A DNA stretch of 47,439 nucleotides from Bacillota bacterium (GTDB lineage: Bacteria; Bacillota; Clostridia; Lachnospirales; Lachnospiraceae), in the NCBI GenBank assembly GCA_023663285.1, contig JAMPHT010000020.1, forward strand, positions 1-47,439, written 5' to 3'. The position numbers and the translations under genes are program-made. Positions 2,946 to 34,501 of this stretch are shown piece after piece. The notes beneath the pieces are model-generated. The model was not told the origin of the DNA and ran no database searches. It saw only the letters and a list, made by a program, of their open reading frames with translations. The number at the start of each line of letters is the position of its first letter. The stretch's first letter is position 1.

Positions 2946-4088
2946 TCAGATCTTCTTGGATTTTCCGATATAGATGGGGAAGCTGTCCGCCCCCTTCATC
3001 TCTTTGCCCGCAGTGATCAGCACATTCTTGTCGGCGATCAGGTACTCCACATTCGCGCCGGACTCGATCACCGTTCCCTGCATCAGGATGCAGTTCTTGA
3101 CCTTTGCGCCCTTTGCAATCTTCACTCCACGGAACAGGATGCTGTTCTCCACCTCGCCCTCGATCAGGCAGCCGTCTGCAGCCATCACGTTCTGGACCTT
3201 GGCGCCCTCGATATATCTGGTAGGGTTGTCGTCCCTGATCTTTGTGTAGATCGGGAAGCCTGAGAAGAGAGCGTCCAGATTATAATCATCCAGCAGCTTC
3301 ATGTTCTCGTCAAAATAGCTCTTGAGGTCGCTGATGCGCGCCACATAGCCGTCGTATTTGTAAGCATGGACATTCAGCTTGTTAAGGTTGGGCATCAGCA
3401 CATCCCGCTCAAAATAGGATTGTCCGCGGACAAAAGCCGTATTGATCAGGTCGATCAGGAGTTCCCGGTCGATCAGATAAATGTTCATGCTGAAATTCTG
3501 AATGCCGGATTCTCTGGGATTCACATAGATCCTGGTGATCCGCTCGTCCTCGATGGCGAAGGTGTAATAGAAGCCCTTGTCATTGGATTTGGACTGGATA
3601 AGGCTCTCCGGAAGCTCCTGCTCATTGTAGGCGACAGTCACATCCGCGCCGCTCTCCACATGGGCCCTTATCATGGCCTTGAAATCAAAATTCATCACGA
3701 TATTGGTGTCCGTGATGACCACATATTTTTCCTTTTGGTTCCGCAGGAAGCCCAGCAGGCTTGCCAGGGCGTCCACACGTCCGCTGTAGGGCTTGCTTCC
3801 CTTTTCGGCAAAGGGCGGGAAGATGTTCAGGCCGCCGTTTTTGCGGACCAGGTCCCACTCACGGCCGGAGCCCAGGTGATCCATCAGGGAGTGGTAATTG
3901 TTGTTTGCCATAACGCAGATATTGTCAATATCGCAGTGAGACATACTGGACAGAATGAAATCGATCAGACGATAACGGCTGGCAAAGGGGATAGACGCCA
4001 TCATACGCACATTGACCAGCTCCGGGACCAGCGCGTCATAGCTGTTGGGGAAAATAATGCCGAGCGCGTTCATATTTGTGTTTAACAT
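2946..4088 (-). CDS. glgD: GlgD, non-catalytic-type subunit of glucose-1-phosphate adenylyltransferase
   Basis: The 380-aa protein has the nucleotidyltransferase fold followed by a left-handed beta-helix of hexapeptide repeats ([20 protein letters not shown] and onward). Where GlgC has the glycine-rich AGGQGSRL loop and the Lys of KPAVPFGG, this protein reads [16 protein letters not shown], so the nucleotide-binding loop is absent. That is typical of GlgD, which in Firmicutes joins GlgC in a mixed complex and modulates its activity. Its ATG lies inside the end of glgC (7-nt overlap), so translation is coupled. No glgA, glgB or glgP is in the window. Confidence 0.93.
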
Positions 4089-32399: not shown

Positions 32400-32852
32400 A
32401 TGGATATGAAAAAGCTTCGGCATGAAAAAATAGCGGAAATCATTCAAAAATATGACGTGGAAACTCAGGAGGAGCTGGCCGGGAGACTGCGGGAGGCAGG
32501 GTTTGCGGTGACCCAGGCAACCGTTTCCAGGGATATACGGGAGATGAAGCTTTCTAAGGTTTCTGCAGGCGGAGCCGGACAGAAATATGTTATTCTGGAG
32601 CAGGGAGACGGGCCTGTGGGGGACAAGTACATCCGTGTGCTGAAGGATGGCTTTGTCTCTATGGACAGGGCCCAGAATATTCTGGTCATCAAGACGGTTT
32701 CGGGGATGGCAATGGCGGTAGCCGCAGCCCTGGACGCCCTGCAGTTTGCCGAGGTGGTGGGCTGTATCGCAGGGGACGACACGATTTTCGTGGCGGTGCG
32801 CACCGCGGAGGAGACCAGGCGGCTGATGGAAAAGGTGCGGGGGCTGGTGTGA
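32400..32852 (+). CDS. argR: Arginine repressor ArgR/AhrC
   Basis: The 150-aa protein has an N-terminal winged helix (TQEELAGRLREAGFAVTQAT then VSRDIREMKL) and a C-terminal arginine-binding and hexamerisation domain with VVGCIAGDDTIFVAV. AGAAGGA precedes ATG. ArgR represses arginine biosynthesis and activates catabolism in Firmicutes. Downstream, recN is expected next, but a type III toxin-antitoxin locus is inserted. carB at 42002 is a plausible ArgR target; I could not identify an ARG box by eye. Confidence 0.95.
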   Translation: MDMKKLRHEKIAEIIQKYDVETQEELAGRLREAGFAVTQATVSRDIREMKLSKVSAGGAGQKYVILEQGDGPVGDKYIRVLKDGFVSMDRAQNILVIKTVSGMAMAVAAALDALQFAEVVGCIAGDDTIFVAVRTAEETRRLMEKVRGLV

Positions 32853-32892
32853 AAAAAAATTAATATAGATTTATAATATTTTTCAAAAGATG

Positions 32893-32921
32893 TTGCTATT
32901 TTTTTGTTGTTTGAGTATACT
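32893..32921 (+). promoter_or_regulatory. Promoter of the type III toxin-antitoxin operon
   Basis: TTGCTA (32893-32898) and TATACT (32916-32921) are 17 nt apart in an AT-rich stretch 40 nt after argR. Transcription should start near 32928, just before the antitoxin RNA hairpin. A strong constitutive-looking promoter is expected because the RNA antitoxin must be in excess. Confidence 0.75.
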
Positions 32922-32952
32922 ATAAACAGGTTAATGCCTTTGGCTTAACAGC

Positions 32953-33063
32953 AGGTATATCTCGACCTTTAACGGAGACAGTTATAAGCGGGTATATCTC
33001 AACCCATAAGCGAGACAGTTATAAGTGAGTGTTTCGCCACTCAAAGTGCGAGTTTAACAGTGG
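32953..33063 (+). repeat. Three 37-nt antitoxin repeats with covarying pseudoknot stems
   Basis: Unit 1 (32953-32989) pairs AGGT 32953-32956 with ACCT 32965-32968 and TCTC 32960-32963 with GAGA 32975-32978. Unit 2 (32990-33026) pairs GGGT 32990-32993 with ACCC 33002-33005 and TCTC 32997-33000 with GAGA 33012-33015. Unit 3 (33027-33063) pairs GAGTG 33027-33031 with CACTC 33038-33042 and TCGC 33034-33037 with GCGA 33048-33051. Units 1 and 2 are about 80% identical; unit 3 has diverged in sequence but keeps the fold. Confidence 0.85.
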
Positions 33064-33085
33064 GGCGGATTTCCGCCCCATTTTT
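33061..33085 (+). terminator. Terminator between antitoxin RNA and toxin gene
   Basis: TGGGGCGG (33061-33068) pairs with CCGCCCCA (33073-33080), loop ATTT, followed by TTTTT. Readthrough would supply the small amount of toxin mRNA, as in other type III systems. Confidence 0.9.
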
Positions 33086-33104
33086 ACCTTAGGAGGATAT
33101 ATGA

Positions 33105-33587
33105 TTGGCAGTAGAGTTATATGAGGTCAATTCCAAATATATTGATTATTTGATTCCCTATGCGCCGCACTTATTTCATAATAAGCAACCACAGCAGGGT
33201 AATGAGAGAAAGTATATAGGTATTGTTTTAACTGTAAACAATATGAAGTATTTTGCCCCATTATCTTCTTTTAAAGCAAAGCATGAGAGAATGAAAAATG
33301 GATTGGATTTTATTAAAATAGGGAATTATGCCGTAATAAATATCAACAATATGTTTCCGGTACCTGACGGCGCATATACTTATGTAGATATACCTAAAGT
33401 GAAAGATCCACAGTATAGAAAGCTTTTGATGGTAGAATATCGTATTATAAGGAAATTGCAGGACAAGATAAGGAATAACGCGGCAGAGGTTTATAAGCAC
33501 AAGATACATAGAGGCAACACAACAGCACTGGCAAAGAGATGTAATGATTTTCTCCTGTTGGAAGAAAAATGCAGACAGTTTGAGTAA
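33105..33587 (+). CDS. toxN: Type III toxin, ToxN/AbiQ-family endoribonuclease
   Basis: The 160-aa protein has the ToxN family pattern: YEVNSKYIDYLIPY at the start, YIGIVLTVNNMKYFAPLSSF followed by KAKH (the conserved apl-s-K-x-H active-site region), IKIGNYAVININNMFPVP, and the C-terminal CNDFLLLEEKCRQF. Such toxins cut A-rich mRNA and process their own antitoxin RNA; many give phage defence by abortive infection. The start is a TTG at 33105, 8 nt after AGGAGG (33091-33096). An out-of-frame ATG at 33101 lies between them. Its AT-rich coding sequence differs from the neighbouring core genes, suggesting transfer. The ToxIN, CptIN and TenpIN subfamilies cannot be separated with certainty by eye. 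Confidence 0.9.
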   Translation: MAVELYEVNSKYIDYLIPYAPHLFHNKQPQQGNERKYIGIVLTVNNMKYFAPLSSFKAKHERMKNGLDFIKIGNYAVININNMFPVPDGAYTYVDIPKVKDPQYRKLLMVEYRIIRKLQDKIRNNAAEVYKHKIHRGNTTALAKRCNDFLLLEEKCRQFE

Positions 33588-33631: not shown

Positions 33632-34501
33632 ATGGCTTTAAGTATAGTAGTTTTCTCTGATATTCATGGTAATCATGCGGCATTTGAAGAGTGCCTGCAC
33701 TATATTCTGCCCCGCCGTATCCACACCTTTATCTTTCTGGGCGATTATCTGGGGGAATTTCCGTATCCGCAGAAAACAATGGAAATGCTGTATGCCCTGC
33801 AAGAAAAATACACCTGCTTTTTCATCAGGGGAAATAAGGAAGATTACTGGATAAGCCGCAGGAATGACGCGGACTGCCGGTGGAAATACGGAAATCAGAC
33901 TGTGGGCGCCATGCAATACTGCTATGAGAATCTGCGGGAAAGAGACATTGATTTTTTTCAAAGCCTTCCGGCCGCTCATAAGATATGCTTTGAAAACAGT
34001 TCTGCAATATTGGCCTGTCACGGTTCTCCGGAAAGAAACAATGAAAAGATGCTTCCCGGCAATGATCAAACGCGCCAGCGCATGGAGGAATGTGCCTGTA
34101 AGTATATCCTTTGCGGCCATACCCATCTGCAGGGAACAATAGAGTATGGCGGCAGGACGGTGTTCAATCCCGGTTCCGTCGGCGCGGCTCTGCACAGCGG
34201 CGGGAAAGCGCAGTTTATGGTCCTGCATCAGGAGGGGCAGGAATGGACGCCGGAATTTATCAGCCTGGACTATGACAAAGAAAGAATCATGCAGGAAATG
34301 CAGGAATCCGGTCTGGAGAAGGCAGCGCCCTGCTGGACCCGGATAACGAAGCATTTGATACTTACGGGGGAGATATCCCCTGGAACGGTTTTGGCAAGGG
34401 CAATGACCCTATGCGAACAGGAACAGGGGGAATGTGACTGGTATAATGTTCCGGACCGATATTGGGAAATGGCTCTTGGAGAAATACGGGAAATACAGTA
34501 A
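33632..34501 (+). CDS. Calcineurin-like metallophosphoesterase (YfcE/MJ0936-type)
   Basis: The 289-aa protein has the full set of two-metal motifs: SDIHGNH near residue 9, FLGDYLGEF, IRGNKEDYW, LACHGSPE and CGHTHLQGT. This is the short phosphodiesterase type, here with a C-terminal extension of about 90 residues that I do not recognise. GGAGGAAAA precedes ATG. It lies 44 nt after toxN and just before recN, so it may have arrived with the toxin locus or be separate cargo. The substrate is unknown. Confidence 0.85.
   Translation: MALSIVVFSDIHGNHAAFEECLHYILPRRIHTFIFLGDYLGEFPYPQKTMEMLYALQEKYTCFFIRGNKEDYWISRRNDADCRWKYGNQTVGAMQYCYENLRERDIDFFQSLPAAHKICFENSSAILACHGSPERNNEKMLPGNDQTRQRMEECACKYILCGHTHLQGTIEYGGRTVFNPGSVGAALHSGGKAQFMVLHQEGQEWTPEFISLDYDKERIMQEMQESGLEKAAPCWTRITKHLILTGEISPGTVLARAMTLCEQEQGECDWYNVPDRYWEMALGEIREIQ

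Follow-up and report, generated by a model that had tools for sequence, protein, structure and literature searches.

Phage defence by abortive infection is known for some members of the ToxIN family of toxin-antitoxin systems. Type III antitoxins are usually described as arrays of one repeated unit whose number is slightly variable, and in the three systems compared in PMC5086642 the arrays hold 5.5, 2.9 (Bacillus thuringiensis) and 2.8 repeats of 34–36 nt, a number described as “prone to slight variations”. Adding or removing a single repeat of antiQ lowers the phage resistance conferred by AbiQ (PMC5086642). The ToxI-Pa array has 5.5 repeats with one variable base, PCR products of 2.5 to 5.5 copies were obtained in earlier cloning, and strand slippage was suggested as the cause of such changes in ToxI repeat number (PMC3475682). 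The toxin ToxN cuts the precursor RNA, and the units fold by themselves into pseudoknots that hold ToxN in a 3:3 ring (PMC8860590). The half-life of ToxI RNA is in the range of minutes, and release of the toxin once the RNA supply stops is a proposed model that is not settled (PMC5772629). Titles and abstract openings of the literature consulted make no mention of unequal or imperfect ToxI repeats, which a 2012 survey of type III systems might mention.

Here, we analysed a locus in a 47,439-nt stretch of DNA (the window, by which we mean this whole stretch), which we read, with a probability of roughly 0.88, as a ToxIN (type III toxin-antitoxin) locus on the chromosome whose antitoxin array is a fixed, ordered trio of unequal pseudoknots. 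By sequence and structure it is a genuine ToxIN locus, of a kind already known, with the ordered unequal trio as its special feature. All parts lie on the + strand between 32893 and 33587, in the order promoter-like site, 5′ hairpin, three H-type pseudoknots, terminator and toxN, and the coordinates that a sequence-only reading had given for the locus proved right. The features are as follows.

32893..32921, + strand: promoter-like site TTGCTA-17-TATACT, sigma-70-like (consensus match 9/12)
32930..32949, + strand: 5′ hairpin of the transcript, GTTAA-GCC / GGC-TTAAC (from the sequence)
32945..32951, + strand: box TTAACAG bordering unit 1 on its 5′ side, candidate site of ToxN cleavage (from the sequence)
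32953..32978, + strand: antitoxin unit 1, H-type pseudoknot (Watson-Crick scan, 23-locus alignment); stem A AGGT:ACCT, 32953-32956 with 32965-32968; stem B TCTC:GAGA, 32960-32963 with 32975-32978
32982..32988, + strand: box TTATAAG at the unit 1–unit 2 junction, candidate site of ToxN cleavage (from the sequence)
32990..33015, + strand: antitoxin unit 2, H-type pseudoknot (Watson-Crick scan, 23-locus alignment); stem A GGGT:ACCC, 32990-32993 with 33002-33005; stem B TCTC:GAGA, 32997-33000 with 33012-33015
33019..33025, + strand: box TTATAAG at the unit 2–unit 3 junction, candidate site of ToxN cleavage (from the sequence)
33027..33051, + strand: antitoxin unit 3, divergent H-type pseudoknot, conserved between loci (Watson-Crick scan, 23-locus alignment); stem A GAGT:ACTC, 33027-33030 with 33039-33042; stem B TCGC:GCGA, 33034-33037 with 33048-33051
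33054..33060, + strand: box TTAACAG bordering unit 3 on its 3′ side, candidate site of ToxN cleavage (from the sequence)
33059..33085, + strand: intrinsic terminator between antitoxin and toxin, stem-loop 33059-33082 (10 pairs, 7 of them G-C)
33091..33096, + strand: Shine-Dalgarno AGGAGG of toxN, ending 8 nt 5′ of the start codon (from the sequence)
33105..33587, + strand: toxN, ToxN/AbiQ-family endoribonuclease of 160 aa with a TTG start (homology)

Judged by consensus alone, sigma-70-like sites occur at chance level (4 found, 3.5 expected), and among 35 trio loci, 30 have a TATAAT or TATACT box in the last 45 nt or so that precede unit 1. Terminator-like sites, which overlap, number 2 where 0.5 would be expected, and a terminator placed between array and toxN is expected to give an excess of antitoxin. 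Inspection by eye found a 5′ hairpin in part of the clade and none in several relatives, for which reason it was rejected as a defining part. Two relatives (L004, ~3918-3990, and L007, ~3900-3985) have about 64 and 82 nt more DNA than the window between terminator and toxin; this extra DNA begins with a common TATAGGAAA(T/C)TGCG and is possibly a small repeat element.

The assignment of the gene to the ToxN/AbiQ family was confirmed by Pfam (PF13958, ToxN_toxin, residues 4-159, E 2.7e-48), by PADLOC (AbiQ, E 3e-36) and by PDB matches to the ToxN chains 4ato (E 3.1e-17), 2xd0 and 7d8o and to AbiQ (4glk); the NCBIfam search with this protein matched no family, and CptN was not named among the seven PDB sequences that match it at E up to 1. 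In the PDB alignments, residues R35, S54, S55 and K57 stand opposite Lys33, Thr52, Ser53 and Lys55 of solved ToxN; none of the four varies among 21 aligned sequences (the window and 20 relatives). The same four residues of ToxN-Ec lie at its active site, and Lys33 is replaced by Arg in two E. coli clusters (PMC8860590). A single ToxN was found in the host genome (90 contigs, 86% completeness).

A scan of genome contigs recovered 20 related loci at 54–84% identity, with records titled Lachnospiraceae, Clostridia, Clostridiales, Acetatifactor, Lachnoclostridium or Eubacterium, and a scan of viral contigs recovered three. ToxN of some kind occurs in 30 of 200 family genomes (a count that includes the window's own), mostly at 30–40% identity, and the ToxN relatives in the phage (3 records) and plasmid (164 records) collections are all below 60% identity. 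Among the 24 close loci (L002-L025), 22 carry the same three units in the same order, L019 shows unit 3 only, and L021 starts inside the toxin.

The pseudoknot geometry was scanned with Watson-Crick pairs only, as a 4-nt stem A, 3 nt, a 4-nt stem B, 1 nt, stem A′, 4–12 nt and stem B′. In the whole window it occurs eight times on the + strand and seven times on the − strand, and units 1 to 3 make up three of the eight. Among 2000 dinucleotide shuffles of the 120-base array, 1983 gave no pseudoknot, 17 gave one and none gave more, and all 24 stem pairs of the window array are Watson-Crick. The homologous loci keep these stems: in the 23-locus alignment, 551 of 552 cells are paired over the 24 stem pairs of six interleaved helices, and pairing falls to 29–61% when the partner is slid out of register. 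Cells changed on both sides number 43, compared with 15.6 in shuffles (0/500 reach 43), and the covariation score is 0.222 against 0.127, in a comparison whose shuffles ignore the relatedness of the loci and whose structure was read from the window itself. Two further measures on the same loci do not favour structure, namely the pairs with two-sided change (6 versus 4.6 in shuffles, 100/500 reaching 6) and the further pair types (8 versus a mean of 12.2 in shuffles). The interleaved H-type stems that had been proposed, some of which show compensatory changes, are upheld. Neither of the two outcomes that the sequence-only reading had named as refuting it, a protein unrelated to type III toxins or stems lost in homologous loci, was observed.

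Stem A shows two-sided changes in every unit, stem B in unit 2 only. In units 1 and 3, stem B does not vary within its own position and so yields no covariation from within those units; its support there consists of conservation together with the comparison between units. Since the array finder behind the stem B counts and the unit comparisons demands a paired stem B, the 23-locus alignment is the sole independent test of stem B pairing. The stem A of five pairs first proposed for unit 3 (GAGTG:CACTC) holds for the four pairs GAGT:ACTC, and the fifth pair is kept in some relatives, not in all. The description as three 37-nt repeats is correct in spacing (unit cores start at 32953, 32990 and 33027, that is, 37 and 37 nt apart) and in structure, and Tandem Repeats Finder counts only 2.1 copies by sequence; unit 3 is thus a repeat by structure more than by sequence. 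Rfam gave no match at gathering thresholds in the whole window and none at E up to 1 in 32850-33110. An alternative CCACT/AGTGG pairing of unit 3 with the terminator was seen by eye in the window and not in L009, and was dropped.

The window array has the same TTAACAG box at both outer edges and TTATAAG at both inner junctions. The between-locus comparison of units used 36 of the 42 arrays, leaving out L061 and L069 (decayed), L070, L075 and L077 (two-unit) and L078 (toxin-less); the counts over 34 arrays also omit L007 and L012 (broken toxins) and retain L122 (toxin not detected), which is omitted in turn from the counts over 33 loci for TTA, and the 35-locus comparison takes the loci with three units and a clade toxin, broken toxins included. 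TTA is kept at each inner junction in 31 of 33 loci, and a looser box, TA(N1-3)[AC]G or TAACA, is found at the four unit edges, from 5′ to 3′, in 29, 29, 30 and 29 of 34 arrays. These TTANNAG-like boxes at the unit edges are candidate ToxN cut sites.

Stem B distinguishes the units by position. Unit 1 carries TCTC:GAGA in 34/34 arrays and unit 3 carries TCGC:GCGA in 34/34, counts that do not amount to 34 independent observations since all trio loci may descend from one event; unit 2 has TCTC:GAGA in 15 and TCTT:AAGA in 19. The sequence-only reading had described unit 3 as having almost lost its similarity while keeping the fold. The fold is indeed kept, and the loss of similarity is no decay, as unit 3 is the most alike of the three between loci: over 20 core positions in 21 non-redundant triples, between-locus identity is 0.906 for unit 3, 0.880 for unit 1 and 0.738 for unit 2, while within loci (36 loci) the mean identity of unit 3 is 0.62 with unit 1 and 0.59 with unit 2. 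In the window, units 1 and 3 are equal at 11 of the 20 core positions, and over 35 loci the maximum core identity of unit 3 is 15/20 with unit 2 and 14/20 with unit 1. The nearest neighbour of a unit 3 is another unit 3 in 21/21 triples, and units 1 and 2 cross over in part. Same-position identity is 0.842, compared with a mean of 0.717 and a maximum of 0.747 in 500 shuffles of unit order within loci, and toxin and array distances correlate across 33 loci (r 0.477; 0/1000 permutations). Units 1 and 2 are equal at 19 or 20 of 20 core positions in six loci (L008, L014, L057, L059, L060 and L127).

Against other ToxIN arrays, the median self-comparison score is 15 in the 35 trio loci versus 47 in 25 others, with the trio loci of nearly equal units 1 and 2 scoring higher, from 23 to 36. 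Successive units are at least 84% alike in their best stretch in 20 of these 25 arrays, and by eye the last unit deviates in L206, L208 and L212 and the middle unit in L210 (Clostridioides phage). Unequal units are therefore not unique to the trio clade; special is how fixed and how complete the pattern is. In a second, distant ToxN lineage known from two genomes (L044 and L045), three different stem Bs stand in the same order by eye. Upstream of toxN in nine other loci (L031, L032, L034-L038, L046 and L052), inspection by eye showed a single pseudoknot, a hairpin and then a terminator; the hairpin stem differs on both sides between these loci, and such regions would escape tandem-repeat criteria.

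A covariance model of the trio, built as the earlier reading had advised, gave matches in 11/392 genomes of the order sample, 12/391 of the class, 6/61 of the genus and 5/398 of the phylum; these samples overlap in part, each includes the window's own genome, and the filters used in scoring all of them were stricter ones, at which weak matches are lost. Not all matches are trios. Ten are arrays of roughly alike units (L062, L063, L064, L072, L073, L074, L076, L083, L084 and L085), of which eight adjoin a more distant ToxN, none being found beside L083 or L084; four are decayed or lack a clade toxin (L061, L069, L071, L080), four are two-unit arrays (L070, L075, L077, L081), and L078 has three units with no toxin detected. 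When viral contigs were scanned twice with a pattern, 38 and 82 stretches came back; six distinct trio arrays were recognised in them, including three new ones (L122, L127 and L198).

In a tree of 67 ToxN rows, all trio-bearing toxins fall in one group of 35 rows (support 100/99), comprising 33 loci with three units, L070/L077 with two and L019 with one visible. Of 93 matching frames 76 were kept, and nine of these were omitted from the tree as repeats or broken; the tree includes L060 (three units), and its deep joins are unsure, with 22 open forks and long branches that meet. Labelled clade members come from nine host families (f1, f11, f17, f34, f39, f41, f51, f53 and f201). The locus appears to travel, since nearly identical toxins occur in L065 and L066, which belong to two families. 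The trio order is kept across the clade in several clostridial families and on phages. Among the 37 loci in which a clade toxin is preceded by visible DNA, 35 have three units, the others being L077 (genome G842) with two and L019 with one visible; this count omits L081 (two units, beside a toxin of 51% identity that is split into two pieces), L021, the repeats L055, L079, L087, L094, L111 and L205, and the toxin-less arrays. The suggestion that the array may be a new antitoxin variant is partly right: its divergent third unit is conserved throughout a clostridial ToxIN clade and not confined to the window locus.

Damaged toxins in several relatives (L007, L012 and L019) count against the main reading. 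Among related broken toxins, L012 has a frame change, L019 is cut short and L081 is in two pieces; unit 3 of L019 is joined to other DNA, by a deletion or as an assembly chimera. Contig C26 of G842 carries three two-unit arrays (L077, L070 and L075), each with one unit of the unit 1 type and one of the unit 3 type. One of them lies 5′ of toxN, one about 260 nt further upstream (start to start), and the third about 9.7 kb away, without a toxin in the stretch examined.

The argR and recN genes of the window flank toxIN together with a metallophosphoesterase gene; recN was named from an SMC_N match and its place. The same-genus genomes in which both genes are visible have argR followed by recN with no toxN or phosphoesterase match in 25/25, and in a 26th the contig ends early. 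The nearest relative found at the argR-recN site is L007 (titled Acetatifactor muris), with neighbour proteins 87–95% identical; its toxin has a 27-residue in-frame deletion that includes the catalytic stretch, and an insert precedes the toxin. The metallophosphoesterase gene (window 33632-34501; Pfam Metallophos_2, E 7.5e-18, with YfcE below the cut-off) accompanies toxIN in the argR-recN gap of both the window and L007. When a shared insertion site was sought among the compared loci, argR and recN neighbours were found in L007 only, besides the window. Elsewhere, L013 is near a conjugation gene, L023 lies between the terminase and integrase of a phage contig and L024 adjoins the terminase of a phage contig; the position of the last two beside phage terminases hints at phage abortive infection.

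One trio array stands on a phage contig without a detected ToxN (L122:7805-7940, from IMG/VR, with capsid, portal, terminase and integrase genes). It lies between terminase and integrase, as in L023, which has the whole locus there; all of its stems are paired, it departs from the nearest arrays at one of 60 core positions, and both inner junction TTA boxes are lost. This array may be either a remnant or a decoy antitoxin of the phage, immune to cutting by ToxN. Located 3′ of it (L122:8010-8873) is a structured, partly repetitive RNA region with a terminator-like hairpin (judged by eye and from one fold), which has no Rfam match and precedes a PBECR4-family nuclease gene (Pfam E 1.3e-22); the two look like a pair with another type of RNA antitoxin.

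By homology to the characterised systems and from the anatomy of the locus, we infer that one promoter would give a short RNA of three pseudoknots that ends mostly at the terminator, with some read-through to produce ToxN. As a sequence-specific RNase, ToxN would cut this RNA at the TTANNAG-like boxes at the unit edges. The freed pseudoknots, which would leave the transcript as a unit 1 with TCTC:GAGA, a unit 2 with TCTC:GAGA or TCTT:AAGA and a last unit with TCGC:GCGA, would bind ToxN and keep it silent, probably in a ring-shaped complex with three copies of the toxin and three RNAs. On a shut-off of transcription, for instance by a phage, the RNA would be exhausted first and ToxN would then cut cellular and phage RNA.

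Why the last unit is distinct can be answered only tentatively. The reason that we prefer is that unequal units may resist slippage and recombination and so lock the antitoxin dose; three units persist even in loci where units 1 and 2 are equal or nearly so, which weakens the idea for these two units and argues against it as the whole story.

Nearly as likely, and ranked close to the locking of dose, is neutral retention: the units would have become different a single time, in an ancestor; gene conversion between unlike units would then have ceased, and each unit would simply have been passed on, constrained by its structure. In a tandem array it is the end unit that most easily escapes homogenisation, and the trio would do no more than any ToxI. 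It is consistent with this that all cases belong to one clade, that units 1 and 2 range from similar to dissimilar while the end unit stays apart, and that single units also deviate in the four other ToxIN arrays noted by eye above (the last in three, the middle in one). However, unit 3 is at least as conserved between loci as unit 1 and more so than unit 2, unlike a relaxed edge unit, and the number three is held in nearly all loci with a clade toxin (35/37).

A role of its own for unit 3 seems rather unlikely as the explanation, although it would account for a stem B that is distinct in every array counted, for the constant last place and for the low ceiling on core identity with units 1 and 2; the distant lineage of L044 and L045, with its three different stem Bs in one order, points the same way. 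Such a role might be tighter, ring-seeding binding, protection of the 3′ end beside the terminator or a fixed place in a ring with one of each unit. The known rings, however, have equal ToxN subunits and offer no obvious placing of unlike RNAs, and the G842 arrays have only one unit of each type.

Quite improbable, in our judgement, is an antitoxin that counts itself, in which one transcript gives one each of three non-equivalent pseudoknots that assemble with three ToxN into a ring of defined composition. If it were true, one transcript would seal one toxin ring, the dose of the array would be immune to slippage, and toxin-less phage copies such as L122 would be decoy antitoxins forced to copy the whole trio. 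That the locus is a dead or dying relic in the window genome is most improbable of all, since the toxin frame is whole with its catalytic positions present, all stem pairs are Watson-Crick and promoter-like box, terminator and ribosome site are in place, despite the damaged L007 toxin at the same argR-recN site and the arrays elsewhere without a detected toxin (L061, L069, L078 and L122).

Whichever reason holds for the unequal units, with the locking of dose preferred, the trio clade is a natural system in which to ask whether one RNA can stand in for another in the ToxIN ring, and whether an array of diverged units is safer from slippage and from mimicry by phages. Tandem-repeat finders can undercount antitoxins of this sort.

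Several described systems lie close to this locus. PMC8040213 describes HMP2_3156 and related candidate structured RNAs upstream of ToxN, with a 106-bp candidate, assigned to Clostridiales by the order of the sentence, that stands directly upstream of ToxN and has roughly the length of the trio; the authors suggest ToxI. Matched on length and place alone, this candidate RNA may be a trio array. The CptIN system of Eubacterium rectale shares the type III logic with an RNA pseudoknot antitoxin and differs in its 45-nt units and 2:2 ring (PMC4627078), compared with a spacing of 37 nt here; membership in CptIN was rejected on this spacing and on the PDB matches given above. AbiQ/antiQ of Lactococcus has a toxin of the same family (PADLOC AbiQ, PDB 4glk). 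The array on a Lactococcus plasmid (L207), beside a gene annotated ToxN/AbiQ, has the same geometry by eye, GGTGAATCTCCACC with GAGA, and its successive units are 96% alike, unlike the window trio.

Also close is ToxIN of Pectobacterium atrosepticum, E. coli and B. thuringiensis, with which the locus shares a homologous toxin, the order promoter, array, terminator and toxin, and H-type pseudoknot units of similar length. Copy numbers near three also occur there, namely 2.9 in B. thuringiensis (PMC5086642) and, for one cluster of E. coli, 3 (PMC8860590). At the junctions of the present array the candidate boxes resemble TTANNAG, whereas the cut sites of the three known ToxIN systems are A-rich (PMC8860590). 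In contrast to ToxI-Pa, with a single variable base over 5.5 repeats (PMC3475682), the last unit of the window shares 11/20 core positions with unit 1, so that the near-identity of units that is usual in ToxIN, and not stated as defining, is absent from the window array. A toxin homologous to ToxN/AbiQ, a promoter-like site and a terminator, a tandem array and H-type pseudoknots are all present, and by these features the locus is a member of the ToxIN family.
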